Under the pieces are notes generated by a model. The model was not told the origin of the DNA. It was given only the letters and a program-made list of their open reading frames with translations, and made no database searches. DNA of 17,323 bases from Actinomycetota bacterium (GTDB lineage Bacteria > Actinomycetota > Thermoleophilia > Gaiellales > Gaiellaceae): contig JACDBY010000462.1 in assembly GCA_013694685.1 (NCBI GenBank), positions 1 through 17,323 of the forward strand, written 5' to 3'. The position numbers and the translations under genes are program-made. This document shows positions 3,397-13,212 of this stretch, piece after piece; the first letter of the stretch is position 1; the number at the start of each line of letters is the position of its first letter.

Positions 3397-3496
3397 CGCT
3401 CCACATCGAGAGAGGCTGAGGGACCGGCCCTGTGACGCCTCGGCAACCCCCCTCGCGAGAGGGCCCGGTGCCAAACCCGGATGGATGTGTCGAGCG
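3397..3496 (+). promoter_or_regulatory. SAM-I-clan riboswitch
   Basis: S-adenosylmethionine aptamer. P1 is CACATC (3402-3407) with GATGTG (3484-3489), extended by CGCTC (3397-3401) with GAGCG (3492-3496) across a TC bulge. P2 is GAGGC (3412-3416) with GCCTC (3437-3441), enclosing the SAM-I kink-turn and loop block TGAGGGACCGGCCCTGTGA. Next come the conserved CGGCAACC, P3 with a CCCTC/GAGGG stem and GCGA loop (3451-3463), and the GGTGCCAAACCC joining strand. After that strand only a few bases remain before P1 closes, so the separate P4 hairpin of classical SAM-I is absent; this compact form may belong to the SAM-I/IV variant. There is no terminator between aptamer and gene; the SD begins 5 nt after the extended P1, so control is probably translational. 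Confidence 0.88.
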
Positions 3497-3500
3497 AGCG

Positions 3501-3507
3501 AAGGAGG
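3501..3507 (+). promoter_or_regulatory. Shine-Dalgarno AAGGAGG fixing the thrC start
   Basis: A near-perfect SD, 9 nt before GTG 3517. It rules out the in-frame ATG at 3481, which lies inside the riboswitch. GGTCCC (3506-3511), which includes the last GG of the SD, is complementary to GGGACC (3420-3425) in the aptamer P2 region. Confidence 0.85.
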
Positions 3508-3516
3508 TCCCCAGCC

Positions 3517-4794
3517 GTGTCAGCCCTCTCCCTCACCTGTCGGGTCTGTGCGACCGAGCACCCCCTCGAGGCGATCGGCTCGTGCAGCCGGTGCTTCGGT
3601 CCCCTCGACCCAGCCTACGACTGGGAGCTGCTCCGCCGGACGGTGACGCGCGAGCGCCTGGCGGACGGCCCGGCCTCGATCTGGCGGTACGCCGACGTGC
3701 TCCCGGTCGCGGCTCCTACCGAGCCACGGCTGAGCCCGGGCTGGACACCGCTCGTGCCGGCCCCGCGGCTCGCCGCCGAGGTCGGGGTCCGCGAGCTCTG
3801 GCTCAAGCTCGACACCGCGAACCCGACGCACTCGTTCAAGGATCGGGTCGTCGCGGTGGCGGCCCGCAAGGCCCAGGAGCTCGGTCTCGGGACGCTCGCC
3901 TGCTCCTCGACGGGCAACCTCGCAGCAGCCGTCGCGGCGCGCGCCGCCGCCGAGGGACTCGACGCGGCGGTCTTCGTCCCAGCCGACCTCGAGCCGGAGA
4001 AGCTGACCGCGGCCGCTGCCTACGGTCCGACGGTCTACACCGTCGATGGCCACTACGACCACTGCTCGCGTCTGACCGTCGAGCTCTCCTTCGAGCTCCC
4101 GTGGGGCTTCGTCAACGTCAACCTCCGCTCGTACTACGCGGAGGGCTCGAAGACGCTCGCCTACGAGATCGCCGAGCAGCTCGGCTGGCGAGTGCCGGAC
4201 GTCGTCGTCGCGCCGATCGCCTCGGGGGCGCTCTTCCACAAGCTCGGACAGGGCTTCGCGGAGCTCCGCGAGCTCCGGCTGGTCGACGGTGTCGTTCCGA
4301 GCCTCGTGGGCGGCCAGGCGGCCGGTTGCTCTCCGGTCGCGACCGCGTTCGCAGACGGCGTCCGGGTGATCCCCGTGCGCCCCGCGACGGTCGCCCGTTC
4401 GCTTGCGATCGGGAGCCCCGCGGACGGCGACTTCGCGGTCGCCACCGCCCGCGAGACCGGCGGCTCGATCCACGCCGTCGCCGAGGAGGCTGTGGGTAAG
4501 AACATGGCTCTTCTCGCCCGGACGACCGGTGTGTTCGGCGAGACGGCGACGGGCGTGACGCTCGGCGCGCTGCGTGCCGCCCTCGCCGCGGGTGAGGTGC
4601 GAGCGCGCGATCGCGTCGTCCTGCTCGTCACGGGCGACGGCCTCAAGACCCCCGGCCCGGTCTCATTCACCTACGCCCCGGTCCCGATCGAGCCGGACGC
4701 GGAGACGTTTCTGGAAGACGTGCTCACGTTGGCAAGAGACTGGCCTCCCGAGGGGTCGCGTCAGGGTCGGCCGTTACGATCTCGGCTCTCATGA
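3517..4794 (+). CDS. thrC: Threonine synthase, SAM riboswitch controlled
   Basis: A 425-residue fold-type II PLP enzyme that converts O-phosphohomoserine to threonine and phosphate in the cytosol. An N-terminal zinc-ribbon-like knob has CRVC (8-11) and CSRC (23-26). The PLP lysine is Lys108 in NPTHSFKDR, and the phosphate loop is STGNLAAAVAAR. The C-terminal third has VGKNMALLARTTGVFGETATG and LLVTGDGLKTP, typical of the long-form synthases of actinobacteria and plants. GTG 3517 is chosen for its SD. The tail after FLEDVLTL (about 20 residues rich in R, P and S) looks non-conserved and may be read-through into a junction with the following low-GC insert. Placing it under a SAM aptamer is unusual, because SAM switches normally govern methionine or sulfur genes, so a homocysteine-forming side role from O-phosphohomoserine cannot be excluded. 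Confidence 0.9.
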   Translation: MSALSLTCRVCATEHPLEAIGSCSRCFGPLDPAYDWELLRRTVTRERLADGPASIWRYADVLPVAAPTEPRLSPGWTPLVPAPRLAAEVGVRELWLKLDTANPTHSFKDRVVAVAARKAQELGLGTLACSSTGNLAAAVAARAAAEGLDAAVFVPADLEPEKLTAAAAYGPTVYTVDGHYDHCSRLTVELSFELPWGFVNVNLRSYYAEGSKTLAYEIAEQLGWRVPDVVVAPIASGALFHKLGQGFAELRELRLVDGVVPSLVGGQAAGCSPVATAFADGVRVIPVRPATVARSLAIGSPADGDFAVATARETGGSIHAVAEEAVGKNMALLARTTGVFGETATGVTLGALRAALAAGEVRARDRVVLLVTGDGLKTPGPVSFTYAPVPIEPDAETFLEDVLTLARDWPPEGSRQGRPLRSRLS

Positions 4795-4833: not shown

Positions 4834-5754
4834 GTGCACGAGGAAAGCGAGTGGCTCGAGCTGCCATTCGCCGCGACCGATGACGCAGGTCGCTGCGTAG
4901 TGAAGGAGCTCGCGTTGCTCGAAGCGGAGGACCTCGAACGGCAGGACTTCGAGCTGCCTACGATAGTGATTGGCGACAGCCGCTCCGTTCTGAGGCGAAT
5001 GCCTTCGAGGCTTGTCCAGACCACGGTCACCTCACCGCCATACTGGTCGCTCCGCGACTACGACATCGAGGGTCAGATTGGTCTCGAGTCCTCCCTCGAG
5101 CAGTACATCGCGAACCTCGTTGCCGTCTTCGAGGAGGTACGACGAGTCACACGCGACGACGGCACGCTGTGGTTGAACATAGGCGACTCCTACACCTCAG
5201 GTGGTCGAACGTGGCGAGCGCCTGATCGCAAGAACCCCGTTCGAGCGATGGATGTCCGTCCACCGACGCCGAGGGGCCTTAAGCCGAAGGATCTGATTGG
5301 CGTGCCATGGAGACTGGCGTTCGCGCTGCAGGCCGCGGGCTGGTATCTCCGCGCCGACCTTGTGTGGAACAAGCCGAACTGTCAACCCGAGAGCGTCAAG
5401 GATAGGCCGACGAGATCACACGAATACGTCTTTCTGTTCAGCAAGAGCGAGCGTTACACGTACGACCACACAGCAGTTCGTGGCCTCAATGATCGCAATG
5501 TTCGGACCGTGTGGAACATCAACACGCAGGCGTACAAGGAAGCTCACTTTGCCACCTTTCCCTCCGCTCTGGTCGAACCATGCATCGCGCTGTCAAGCAG
5601 CCCGCATGACCTTGTGCTCGATCCGTTCCTGGGCTCGGGGACTACGGGGCTGACAGCCATAGCCTTAGGTCGACGGTTTCTCGGTGTCGAGCTCAATCCC
5701 GAATACGTCGACATCGCCGAACGCCGGTTGCGAGTCGCAGCGTCCGCGGCGTGA
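4834..5754 (+). CDS. Site-specific DNA methyltransferase, beta class (probably N4-cytosine)
   Basis: A 306-residue SAM-dependent DNA methyltransferase. Motif order is IV before I: TSPPYW at 66-71 is the catalytic motif, then VWNKPN (177-182) and HEYVFLFSK (196-204), then the SAM-binding DPFLGSGTTG (263-272) and FLGVELNPEYVDIAERRL. This order defines the beta class. SPPY rather than DPPY favours N4-cytosine, but some N6-adenine enzymes also have it. Target recognition probably lies in residues 115-175; the recognition site cannot be deduced. GTG 4834 is the first in-frame start after the thrC stop and has only a weak AAGG just before it; GTG 4900 is an alternative. Base composition is clearly less GC-rich than the flanking genes (a sampled stretch, 5401-5460, is about 52% GC), which suggests horizontal acquisition. 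It overlaps the next, broken frame by 4 nt. Confidence 0.92.
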   Translation: MHEESEWLELPFAATDDAGRCVVKELALLEAEDLERQDFELPTIVIGDSRSVLRRMPSRLVQTTVTSPPYWSLRDYDIEGQIGLESSLEQYIANLVAVFEEVRRVTRDDGTLWLNIGDSYTSGGRTWRAPDRKNPVRAMDVRPPTPRGLKPKDLIGVPWRLAFALQAAGWYLRADLVWNKPNCQPESVKDRPTRSHEYVFLFSKSERYTYDHTAVRGLNDRNVRTVWNINTQAYKEAHFATFPSALVEPCIALSSSPHDLVLDPFLGSGTTGLTAIALGRRFLGVELNPEYVDIAERRLRVAASAA

Positions 5755-9339: not shown

Positions 9340-10704
9340 ATGGCGACGCTCGCGATCGTCGGGGCAGGGTTCTGCGGGACGATGGTCGCGACGCACGTGC
9401 TGCGCCTCTCACCCGGGTCGATCGACCGCATCGTCCTCGTCGAGCGAACCGGGCCGGAGGTCGGTGGCGTCGCCTACGGGACGCCGTCCACGAGCCATAC
9501 GCTGAACGTGCCCGCCGGGCGCATGAGCGCGTTCGAGGACGATCCGGACGACTTCCTACGCCACGTCCGCGCCCACGATCGTGCCCTGACGGGCGGCTCG
9601 TTCGTCCCCCGTCACCTGTACGGCGAGTACCTCGGCCGAAGCCTCGCCGAGGCAGAGCGCTCCTCGGGTGTGCGCCTGATCCGTGTCGCCGGCGAGGCGG
9701 TCGACGTCGAGGAGCATGCGGACGGTGCTCGCCTCACGCTCTCTGACGGTCGATTGGTGAACGCGGCGCATTGCGTGCTCGCGGTCGGGAACTACCCACC
9801 GTCCGACCCTCCGGTTGCCGGCGAGGGGCTCTACGCCAGCCTCAGGTACGCCCGCGACCCCTGGGCCGCCGACGCGCTCGAGCGCGTGCGCGAGGAGCCC
9901 GTGCTCCTCCTCGGCAGCGGTCTCACCATGTGCGACATCGTCCTCGCGCTCCGCGACGACGATCAGCAGGCGCCGATCGTCGCCATCTCGCGCCGCGGCC
10001 TCCTCCCACAGGCGCACCGCCTCTCGGCGAGGCCGCCGCCGCACCTGGATCCACCCGATGACGTGGATGTATGGCAGCCGACCGCTCTGGGGATGCTGCG
10101 CGCCCTGCGTGGCGAGGTGCGACGGGCCGAAGAGTCGGGCATCGACTGGCGCGAGGTCGTCACGTCGATCCGGGACGCGACGCCCGCGCTCTGGCAGCGT
10201 CTCGCGACGGACGAGCGTCGACGCTTCCTCCGTCACGCGCGGCCGTACTGGGAGACGCACCGCCACCGCTCGTCCCCCGAGACCGCGTTCGCCGTCGAGT
10301 CGATGCTCGAGTCGGGCGCGCTGCGGCTCGTTCGCGGCACTGTTCGCAGCTACACGGAGACGCCCACCGGAGTGCTCGTGCGCTACGCGCCACGAGACGG
10401 CTCGGACCCCGAGCTGCTGGAGGTGGGAAAGGTGATCAACTGCACCGGGCCGGACACGGATCTCGCCCGCGTGCGCGATCCCCTGATCCGCGCGCTCCGC
10501 GAACGCGGCGCGATCCGGCCGGACGCCCTCGGGCTCGGGCTCGACACCCACGAGGACGGGAGGCTGATCGCAGCCGACGGCGCCGCCACCCGGCGGCTCA
10601 CACTCGTCGGGCCTCTGCGCAAGGGGCGGCTCTGGGAGCACACGGCCGTGCCGGAGCTCCGCGTCGAGGCGAGGCGGGTCGCCGAGCGGCTCTGCGCCGT
10701 CTAA
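9340..10704 (+). CDS. FAD/NAD(P)-binding protein, YdhS-like
   Basis: A 454-residue cytosolic flavoprotein-like protein. The N-terminal Rossmann motif GAGFCG is at residues 8-13. It is followed by GGVAYGTPSTSHTLNVPAGRM, the hallmark of the NAD_binding_9/COG4529 group (E. coli YdhS, HpnW-like proteins), then the FAD-family VLAVGNYPPSDPP, a second nucleotide-binding GSGLTMCD near residue 192, and a C-terminal VINCTGPDTD. Substrate and reaction are unknown for this family. It starts 1 nt after the leuB stop, so it is cotranscribed with the leucine genes; whether it acts in leucine metabolism is unknown. Its TAA stop forms part of the TAAGCT promoter hexamer of the next unit. Confidence 0.85.
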   Translation: MATLAIVGAGFCGTMVATHVLRLSPGSIDRIVLVERTGPEVGGVAYGTPSTSHTLNVPAGRMSAFEDDPDDFLRHVRAHDRALTGGSFVPRHLYGEYLGRSLAEAERSSGVRLIRVAGEAVDVEEHADGARLTLSDGRLVNAAHCVLAVGNYPPSDPPVAGEGLYASLRYARDPWAADALERVREEPVLLLGSGLTMCDIVLALRDDDQQAPIVAISRRGLLPQAHRLSARPPPHLDPPDDVDVWQPTALGMLRALRGEVRRAEESGIDWREVVTSIRDATPALWQRLATDERRRFLRHARPYWETHRHRSSPETAFAVESMLESGALRLVRGTVRSYTETPTGVLVRYAPRDGSDPELLEVGKVINCTGPDTDLARVRDPLIRALRERGAIRPDALGLGLDTHEDGRLIAADGAATRRLTLVGPLRKGRLWEHTAVPELRVEARRVAERLCAV

Positions 10705-10707
10705 GCT
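10702..10707 (+). promoter_or_regulatory. Putative -10 box (TAAGCT) for the pheA leader transcript
   Basis: TAAGCT includes the stop codon of the upstream oxidoreductase gene and ends 7 nt before ATG 10715 of the Phe leader peptide. This fits TANNNT plus a leaderless start. No recognisable -35 element was found. Confidence 0.45.
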
Positions 10708-10714
10708 CTCGACG

Positions 10715-10774
10715 ATGGAGAGCACCAGTCGCCACACCTTCGCCTTTGCGCTCTCCTTCGCCTTTCGGCGCTAG
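10715..10774 (+). CDS. Phenylalanine-rich leader peptide of pheA
   Basis: A 19-codon frame, MESTSRHTFAFALSFAFRR, ending at TAG 10772-10774, 74 nt before pheA. Four of its last eleven residues are Phe (codons at 10739, 10745, 10757, 10763), as in the E. coli pheL peptide that senses Phe-tRNA supply. The two Phe-Ala-Phe stretches are encoded by an exact repeat, TTCGCCTTT (10739-10747 and 10757-10765). GCCTTTCGG (10760-10768) inside the second copy is perfectly complementary to the pheA SD region, and the stop codon lies in the left arm of an 11-bp hairpin. No SD precedes the ATG, but a TANNNT box sits 7 nt upstream, so it may be translated leaderless. Too short for ordinary gene finding; the call rests on Phe content, position and RNA structure. 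Confidence 0.75.
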   Translation: MESTSRHTFAFALSFAFRR

Positions 10775-10843
10775 CCGGCGGATCCCATCTCCCGCCACGC
10801 GCCGGCTAGCCGACACCAAGGCGGATCGTCCACCCCGAAAGGC
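10760..10843 (+). promoter_or_regulatory. pheA translational attenuator (anti-SD helix plus nested hairpin)
   Basis: The outer helix is 9 bp: GCCTTTCGG (10760-10768) with CCGAAAGGC (10835-10843), which contains the pheA SD AAAGG. The inner hairpin is 11 perfect bp: GCTAGCCGGCG (10770-10780) with CGCCGGCTAGC (10800-10810), with a 19-nt loop. The helices are one base apart on the 5' side. No T-run follows, so this is not an intrinsic terminator. A ribosome stalled late in the Phe codons would cover the anti-SD strand and free the SD; after normal termination the SD would be masked. The mechanism is inferred. Confidence 0.7.
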
Positions 10844-10848
10844 AGCCC

Positions 10849-11706
10849 GTGACCCAGAACGAGAACACCGTCGCCTACCCCGGCCGCGAAGGCGCGCACA
10901 GCGCTGCCGCATGTGACCGGCTGTTCCCTGCGGCCCGGCTCGCGCCACAGCCCTCCTTCACCGGCGTCGTCGAGGCCGTCACGTCGAGGGAGTGCGCCTA
11001 CGGCGTCCTGCCGATCGAGAGCTCGCTCGTGGGGCCTGTGAACGAGACGCACGACCTGCTCTACGACAGCGCGCTCTCGATCGTCGCCGAGGCGGTCCTC
11101 CCGATCCGCCACTCGCTTGTCGGCCCGGCGAAGATTCCGCTCGAGGAGGTGCGCGAGATCCGCTCGCATCCGGTCGCGCTCGACCAGTGCAGACGTCTCC
11201 TCGCCGACCTGCCGTGGGCGACCGCGGTGGTCGCTCCCACCACCGCCGACGCGGCGGAGACCGTCGCGCGGCTCGGCGATGCGAGTGTCGTCGCGATCGC
11301 GAGCCTGCGCGCGGCACGGACGCATGCGCTCGTCGTCCTCTCCGACGACGTCGGCGACCATGCGGCGTACACCCGGTTCGCGGCGCTCGCTCCCTACACG
11401 CGCCTCGATCGCCGGCACGGAGAGTGGCGCACGGCCCTCACGTTCGAGACGCACCATCGCCCCGGCGCGTTGCACCGGGCGATCGAGCCCCTCGCGCGGC
11501 GCGCGATCGACATGGTGCAGCTCGTCTCGCGGCCGATCCCGTCGAGGCCGTTCGACTACCGCTTCGACTGCGTGCTCGGTGGTCATCCGCTCGACGAGGA
11601 GCTCGCGACGGCGCTCGCCGAGATGCGCGCGGAAACGGCCCGGCTGCGCGTCTTCGGCTCGTACCGGGCCGACCGCGACGAGGGCTGGGAGACCGTCGCA
11701 GCGTGA
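10849..11706 (+). CDS. pheA: Prephenate dehydratase
   Basis: A 285-residue monofunctional enzyme that converts prephenate to phenylpyruvate, the penultimate step of phenylalanine synthesis. Catalytic domain: AYPGREGAHSAAA at the N-terminus, YGVLPIESSLVGPV, IRSHPVALDQC, and YTRF (174-177), where the TRF motif is essential in the family. A C-terminal ACT domain (about 196-272) contains RPGALHRAIEPL and VQLVSRP, which corresponds to the ESRP phenylalanine-binding loop with a VSRP variant; feedback inhibition by Phe is therefore likely. No chorismate mutase domain is present. GTG 10849 has the SD AAAGG (10838-10842) at 6-nt spacing. Expression is probably controlled by the Phe leader just upstream. 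The stop overlaps the next gene's GTG. Confidence 0.95.
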   Translation: MTQNENTVAYPGREGAHSAAACDRLFPAARLAPQPSFTGVVEAVTSRECAYGVLPIESSLVGPVNETHDLLYDSALSIVAEAVLPIRHSLVGPAKIPLEEVREIRSHPVALDQCRRLLADLPWATAVVAPTTADAAETVARLGDASVVAIASLRAARTHALVVLSDDVGDHAAYTRFAALAPYTRLDRRHGEWRTALTFETHHRPGALHRAIEPLARRAIDMVQLVSRPIPSRPFDYRFDCVLGGHPLDEELATALAEMRAETARLRVFGSYRADRDEGWETVAA

Positions 11707-12666: not shown

Positions 12667-13212
12667 CTACGCGGCCTCGGCGGCGCTCTGGGCGGCGTTT
12701 CCGGCTATCGGGTCGATCCCCGGCAGATAGCGAAGCCACGTCTCGGGCACGCGGTGGAGCGCGAGGCTGATGAAGAGCACGGGGGAGGGCGCACTCGGGA
12801 CTCGCTTCAGGTGCATCGGCGTCTCCTCGAGCAGTCGATCGCCCTTGCGAAGGTTGCACGGCCCGCACGCGGTGACGACGTTCTCCCACACGGAGTCGCC
12901 GCCCCGCGACCGGGGGACGACGTGGTCGAGAGTCAGCCGGGCGGCGCCGTCCCCGCAGTAGACGCACCGCCAGCCGTCGCGCGCGAAGAGCGCGCGCCGC
13001 GAGATCCGGCGCTTCACCGAGCGGGGGACGCGCACGTAGGTGACGAGCCGGATCACATGGGGCCGGACGTAGGTGTTCGTCGCCGTCCGCAGCGGCTCAT
13101 CGTGACGCTCGACGACCTCTGCCTTCCCTTTCCAGACGAGCACGTGCGCACGACGTGTCGAGCACACGTTCAGGGGCTCGTAGCTCGCGTTGAGGACGAG
13201 AACGTGATTCAC
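12667..13212 (-). CDS. HNH endonuclease family protein
   Basis: A 181-residue protein of the actinobacterial HNH group. It begins MNHVLVLNASYEPLNVCSTR, the conserved N-terminus of this group, which supports the GTG at 13212. The HNH module has zinc cysteines CVYC (83-86) and CGPC (116-119), the metal-binding LDHVVPRSRGG with His97, Asn111 in WENVV, and CNLRKGD. Such stand-alone HNH proteins are common chromosomal genes in actinobacteria; whether they repair DNA, act on foreign DNA or do something else is not established. There is no portal, terminase or intron context here that would make it phage-derived. The gene is convergent with the pheA operon. Confidence 0.9.
   Translation of the reverse strand: MNHVLVLNASYEPLNVCSTRRAHVLVWKGKAEVVERHDEPLRTATNTYVRPHVIRLVTYVRVPRSVKRRISRRALFARDGWRCVYCGDGAARLTLDHVVPRSRGGDSVWENVVTACGPCNLRKGDRLLEETPMHLKRVPSAPSPVLFISLALHRVPETWLRYLPGIDPIAGNAAQSAAEAA

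Follow-up and report, generated by a model that had tools for sequence, protein, structure and literature searches.

Organization of the pheA leader locus

The window, by which we mean the whole stretch of 17,323 nucleotides that was analysed, carries the prephenate dehydratase gene pheA directly behind a short Phe-rich frame, and the features of this region are given in Table 1. Read directly from the sequence, the leader is a frame of 19 codons (ATG at 10715, TAG at 10772–10774) that encodes MESTSRHTFAFALSFAFRR and contains TTCGCCTTT twice, at 10739–10747 and 10757–10765. Such a frame had been claimed in an earlier, sequence-only reading of the same DNA and is indeed present before a gene that matches PF00800. 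The other elements named there were likewise confirmed: a 9-nt perfect match between the end of the leader and the segment ccgaaaggc around the pheA Shine-Dalgarno sequence (SD), an 11-bp perfect hairpin (P2) that holds the leader stop codon, and the absence of a T run (across the 75 nt counted from the leader stop, no run exceeds a single T).

Table 1. Features of the pheA leader region in window coordinates.
Feature	Position	Strand	Basis and remarks
−10-like box TAAGCT	10702..10707	+	7 nt 5' of the leader ATG; overlaps the upstream gene's stop codon
Leader frame MESTSRHTFAFALSFAFRR, stop UAG	10715..10774	+	Direct reading; Phe-rich leaders conserved in relatives
Anti-SD segment, 5' side of the base stem (gcctttcgg)	10760..10768	+	Exact complement of 10835–10843; in the minimum-energy fold; no support from swaps across relatives
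Proposed stall site: last Phe codon (TTT), third codon ahead of the stop	10763..10765	+	Comparison of 19 leaders
Hairpin P2, 5' arm, UAG stop inside	10770..10780	+	Direct reading, covariation test, fold
Predicted pseudoknot, loop strand CCGCC	10792..10796	+	Swap test across relatives
Hairpin P2, 3' arm	10800..10810	+	Direct reading, covariation test, fold
Predicted pseudoknot, downstream strand GGCGG	10820..10824	+	Ends 24 nt before the pheA start; swap test
pheA Shine-Dalgarno GAAAGG	10837..10842	+	Reading; same position in 7/7 genus members
pheA, prephenate dehydratase, GTG start	10849..11706	+	PF00800, E 2.4e-45; weak ACT match

Folding of positions 10715–10860 gave −54.9 kcal/mol (z = −2.62; 2 of 200 shuffles equal or better), with both P2 and the leader–SD helix included in the minimum-energy structure. 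A search of the 10690–10870 segment against Rfam at E values up to 10 returned no credible match, and SAM was the sole family to reach its gathering score in the whole window. This SAM riboswitch (3400–3491, 66.9 bits) precedes a PALP-family, threonine-synthase-like gene (3481–4794, assigned from Pfam only) whose listed start falls within the riboswitch match, the true start probably being later. Frameshifting or stop read-through was considered and dropped; by reading, the frame past the UAG ends at a TGA that overlaps the pheA start.

The −10-like box recurs among relatives. A TANNNT box lies 6–9 nt before the start in 19/19 pheA leaders and 5–10 nt before it in 36 of 43 leaders of all targets (mean of 1.3 and maximum of 5 in shuffled sequences), a contrast that is somewhat flattered because the box-bearing start was chosen where several were possible and the shuffles kept that start. 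Comparison thus places a promoter-like box directly before the Phe-rich leader, which probably begins its own, nearly leaderless transcript.

In the window, leuB and the leader are separated by a gene for a FAD/NAD(P)-binding protein (PF13454, 9340–10704); in the relatives of the genus the leader seems, by reading, to follow directly 3' of leuB. Genes for an N6/N4 DNA methylase (4834–5754) and an HNH endonuclease (12667–13212) are found among the amino-acid genes.

Conservation and codon usage of the Phe leader

Relatives of the window do carry the Phe-rich frame. Of 103 genomes of the family, 56 have a detected pheA, and 54 upstream regions were read (17 loci and 37 further stretches; two gene fragments and the contig-end loci L112, L149 and G018 were left out). 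These 54 include partial genes and distant pheA copies with 32–36% identity. At 20 of the 54 loci, one of which (L148) is half masked by Ns, a Phe-rich leader has its UAG stop at the same hairpin; all seven genomes of the window's genus have it before pheA. Two loci (L137, L138) possess a Phe-rich leader with a different hairpin, and at 32 of the 54 neither kind of leader was seen in the stretch read. The doubled Phe-Ala-Phe module, to which a second, weaker anti-SD had been ascribed, is present in the window, but among the copies seen it is found in the window alone. One genome (G124) has two pheA copies (L124, L127), each behind an element.

Outside the family, a Phe leader precedes pheA at 5/5 loci of family f2 of the same order (L018–L022), followed in four of them by a hairpin and T6 and in L022 by a hairpin whose T tract is shorter and interrupted. 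No Phe leader was found before pheA at the eight loci of family f3.

Phe is enriched 9.7-fold in 16 non-duplicate pheA leaders (63 residues) relative to six window proteins. It occupies the third codon before the stop in 18/19 pheA leaders, and this last leader Phe codon is TTT in 18/19, against 11/55 for the other leader Phe codons and 1/50 for Phe codons of window genes (Fisher's exact test, 7e-9 and 2e-14, respectively; the 19 rows are non-independent, as they stem from six genera and include three near-identical pairs). The last-codon TTT accompanies AAAGG-like SDs in 9/9 and GGAG-like SDs in 9/10 cases, with SD classes assigned by reading. Since it is kept equally with both, TTT looks to have been chosen as a codon too, and its use cannot be explained by pairing with AAAGG alone. 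The comparison shows Phe, usually as UUU, at the third codon ahead of a UAG stop that belongs to the near-invariant P2.

Hairpin P2 and a predicted pseudoknot

The sequence of P2 is kept more strictly than pairing alone would require, with six of its 11 pairs never varying. Its covariation had been put forward as a check on the helices, and only part of the expectation held. Nineteen aligned pheA elements gave no P2 covariation (333 of 500 shuffles scored as high). With 31 elements of several targets the covariation score exceeded 500/500 shuffles, which is due to a single covarying pair (CG 20, UA 6, UG 2); both-side pair changes and pair-type counts in the same set, which spans few lineages, did not exceed the shuffles. 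The anti-SD helix showed no covariation.

The loop of P2 pairs with a downstream tract, forming a predicted pseudoknot that is absent from the sequence-only reading. We compared the pairing of each loop with its own tract and with tracts swapped between copies, after removal of near-identical copies (three in the 41-element run, five in the 50-element run). A first run scoring contiguous helices in 41 elements found none of 5000 swaps as good, and in 50 copies own partners scored 17.7 against 15.9 ± 0.33, with 0/10,000 swaps as good. The same held for gltB alone (25 copies, 0 as good) and for all copies except pheA (34, 0 as good). For pheA alone (16 copies) the swaps lent no support (3734/10,000 as good), and pairing in this subset exceeded 500/500 shuffles of the tail. 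L016, L128 and L006 have a weak pairing or none. Changed pairs occur as AUCCGCC/GGCGGAU (thrC), AGCCCGG/CCGGGCU (one gltB copy) and GGCUUUCGC/GCGAAAGCC (a methyltransferase copy). Across the family of elements, then, comparison points to a pseudoknot between the P2 loop and a tract before the SD.

Cruder measures gave weak signals. Duplex energies in 40 elements averaged −13.34 for own partners and −12.46 for permutations (sd 0.32, best permutation −13.74), with 484/2000 swaps as good for pheA and 51/2000 for gltB. Bases flanking the exact CCGCC/GGCGG core in 22 elements gave p values of 0.05–0.11 at the two nearest positions and 0.42 or more at the remaining four, the anchor probably being misplaced in three rows. 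An extra leader hairpin, GCGCG...CGCGC, found no support (2012/5000 swaps as good).

The tract lies over the SD in a minority of copies and otherwise close to it. Among 46 copies with a located start codon it ends within 14 nt of the start in nine (two of which, L016 and L128, have a weak tract only), including both thrC copies, where 2 nt separate tract and start; in 35 of the other 37 it ends 20–40 nt before the start. These close positions point to translation initiation.

The same fold before other genes

Two covariance models were searched against related genomes. R1 matched 34/103 genomes of the family and 37/399 of the class, 33 of the latter being in the family; on reading, five of the 16 retrieved matches were rejected (L224, L227, L230, L232, L234). 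R2 matched 56/399 genomes of the class; 45 of these belong to the family, five through matches rejected by reading and no others, and the eleven outside it stand by model score alone. Eight of 19 retrieved R2 matches were rejected on reading (L299, L307–L313). In the phylum R2 matched 12/396 genomes, three in the family and nine outside it, these again by model score alone. The fold is thus found almost only in the window's family, the accepted methyltransferase copies L231 and L233 being outside it.

The 55 copies collected precede pheA (19), gltB, coding for the large subunit of glutamate synthase (26), a small Cys-rich frame (4), thrC (2), an EamA-type transporter gene (1) and methyltransferase genes (3). 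Target identity was checked by profile for four gltB, two thrC, one transporter and one methyltransferase copy and by reading for the others; of the thrC products, L225 scores above the TIGR00260 cut-off and L226 just below. The gltB copies (L296–L298, L300–L306, L314, L205, L206, L209, L212, L213, L215–L223, L229) include three from genomes of the window's own genus (L296–L298). A Cys-rich frame of about 50 aa was seen behind the fold at L125, L128, L133, L134, L207, L208, L210 and L211; in one genus it sits between the leader and pheA, and the frame of L133 had no match in Pfam. At L177, L231 and L233 the gene behind a variant fold codes for a SAM-dependent methyltransferase (profile check of L231).

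The leader stop is UAG in 54/55 copies, a count to be taken with the fact that model and reading both favour UAG. Leaders of gltB show no Phe or Glu/Gln signature and are enriched in Lys (33 residues, 7.5-fold), with at least one Lys in 22 of 24 leaders, which shows that leader composition follows the target. In 44 copies scanned the longest T run was 1–4, with no intrinsic terminator.

Pairing between the leader and the Shine-Dalgarno sequence

The sequence-only reading had taken the Phe codons as an anti-SD, and comparison did not support this part of it as stated. In 16 pheA elements the leader paired with its own SD no better than with swapped ones (15.8 against 16.1 ± 0.5; 3748/5000 as good), and the same was seen in 38 elements (14.75 against 14.64; 1917/5000) and in gltB (1361/5000). 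Synonymous recoding was beaten at p < 0.05 by three of 42 elements, about the chance level, and the window by itself gave p = 0.15; swap and recoding tests alike omit the last two leader codons and cover six of the nine paired bases of the window. An anti-SD match in a single sequence is on its own weak evidence.

Without a ribosome, the predicted probability that the SD is unpaired varies within the genus, from closed in three of seven members (0.00, 0.04, 0.03) through partly open in two (0.29, 0.34) to open in two (0.62, 0.64). A ribosome-footprint folding model, which includes no pseudoknot, raised this value in the window from 0.00 to about 0.4–0.6 with a ribosome on the last codons, the openness being 0.62 with the ribosome at the stop and 0.60 at the Phe codon. 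In L003 and L006 a modelled ribosome at the Phe codon lowers SD openness, and nine pheA copies from other genera gave no average switch (0.28 without and 0.24–0.37 with a ribosome).

Proposed translational attenuation and alternative explanations

We favour, at slightly better than even confidence, a Phe-sensing translational attenuator in which the ribosome would stall on the UUU three codons before the UAG within the P2 stem; control would most likely act at translation initiation. With ample Phe-tRNA the ribosome would complete the leader and depart, P2, the pseudoknot and, in part of the genus, the leader–SD stem would re-form, and pheA would be poorly translated. With scarce Phe-tRNA the ribosome would pause while UUU occupies its A site; its leading edge would then cover the foot of P2 and the rest of it the anti-SD segment, so that the fold stays open; the SD would be exposed and more prephenate dehydratase made. 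This reading is favoured because Phe, the product of the controlled pathway, is enriched in the leaders, and because of the TTT bias at the last codon, the pseudoknot swaps, the P2 score, the lack of a T run and the Phe leaders of f2, four of whose five loci add hairpin and T6. From the sequence-only reading it retains the Phe leader, which proved to be conserved, and control without an intrinsic terminator but not the Phe codons as anti-SD. Counting against it are the pheA subset, in which swaps do not support the pseudoknot, and its weakness or absence in three copies; P2 covariation at one base pair in few lineages; the failure of the leader–SD stem in swap and recoding tests; the closing of the SD by a ribosome at the Phe codon in L003 and L006; and gltB leaders, which share the fold but carry neither a Phe nor a Glu/Gln signature. 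The SD is also as open with a ribosome at the stop as at the Phe codon, and our confidence is no higher because the footprint model cannot separate a stalled from a terminating ribosome. Lastly, Leu-codon mutations in the comparable LEU element are cited as without regulatory effect in PMC1262725.

A simpler switch would need no pseudoknot: the Phe codons would themselves act as the anti-SD, the hairpin would serve as spacer, and a stalled ribosome would free the SD. It would account for the 9-nt match, the minimum-energy fold and the predicted opening of the window's SD; we regard it as unlikely, given pairing no better than swapped or recoded, an SD clearly closed in just three of seven genus members, no average switch in the nine copies from other genera, and a conserved hairpin and pseudoknot that it leaves unexplained. 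Control of transcription, with P2 as a terminator lacking a T run or with an untranslated spacer permitting Rho termination, draws on the f2 leaders with their terminator hairpin and on the Rho-dependent control suggested for actinobacterial cys leaders (PMC1262725). The uniformly short T runs and a pseudoknot partner placed by the SD, or over it in some copies, argue against such control, which we hold to be rather improbable. Much the same low probability goes to the fold being a protein binding site, as proposed for LEU, with the leader codons not serving as the signal. The conservation of P2 beyond pairing needs and the sharing of one fold by genes with different leaders would fit a protein, which the 2005 paper favoured for LEU (PMC1262725), but the Phe codons, their position and the use of TTT in pheA leaders match the pathway, and gltB leaders are enriched in Lys. 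GC-rich DNA does yield many hairpins, and some pairing of UUU with A-rich SDs is expected by chance; a fortuitous short frame beside a GC-rich hairpin is nevertheless barely conceivable in view of the conservation, codon bias, −10 box and covariation.

Taking all targets together, we tentatively propose, at somewhat under even confidence, a family of cis-regulatory RNAs, so far undescribed, in Gaiellaceae-like members of the Thermoleophilia: a single pseudoknot chassis whose stem holds the UAG would carry swappable codon sensors that set the amino acid sensed (Phe before pheA, apparently Lys before gltB, and others before thrC and the transporter gene), with translation initiation as the output. 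As leader-peptide control it is ordinary in kind and unusual in design and extent. Were the proposal true, codon sensing through a pseudoknot would be directly testable by leader swaps on one chassis.

Comparison with known leader systems

Enterobacterial Phe attenuators such as the pheA leader end in an intrinsic terminator. They likewise place a Phe-rich leader before pheA, and differ from the present element, which has neither a T run nor an Rfam leader match. The f2 leaders are also Phe-rich, lie behind a −10-like box and precede the same gene, but four of five have a T6 terminator hairpin and they have no P2–pseudoknot core. In f2 the Phe leader goes with a terminator; in the window's family, leaders of different kinds share one fold and precede different genes. 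The ilvB-II uORF of Corynebacterium is, like the pheA leader, an actinobacterial leader peptide rich in the amino acids of its pathway; it acts by transcription attenuation through a terminator stem and a uridine stretch, and the word pseudoknot is absent from the text of that paper (PMC10272879).

The nearest known relative is the actinobacterial LEU element, which lies upstream of leuA (Seliverstov et al., 2005; PMC1262725) and likewise has a leader peptide and a pseudoknot and no T run. LEU joins Leu codons to leuA where the present element joins Phe codons to pheA, and the pseudoknot between leader and SD is common to both (in our case from the 50-copy swaps, pheA alone being non-significant). 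In LEU the codon run is able to base-pair with the downstream gene's SD, a pairing that is present in the window but unsupported across relatives, and here one core serves several genes, unlike LEU. Because codon mutations were cited as ineffective, the mode of action of LEU was left open in 2005. For the phenylalanine, threonine and lysine operons of Actinobacteria that survey saw no conserved RNA structure upstream (PMC1262725). In the pheA leaders described here the codons match the target gene. Our own literature search, with most subscription journals outside its scope, found no Phe leader or fold of this kind in Thermoleophilia. A comparison of R2 with six leuA regions gave no credible match (best 11.6 bits, E = 0.8). 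The window's own genome also has a Leu-rich leader, ending in ALLALALLLPR, before an actinobacterial-type leuA (L240, G000:C149), which is LEU-like by reading.
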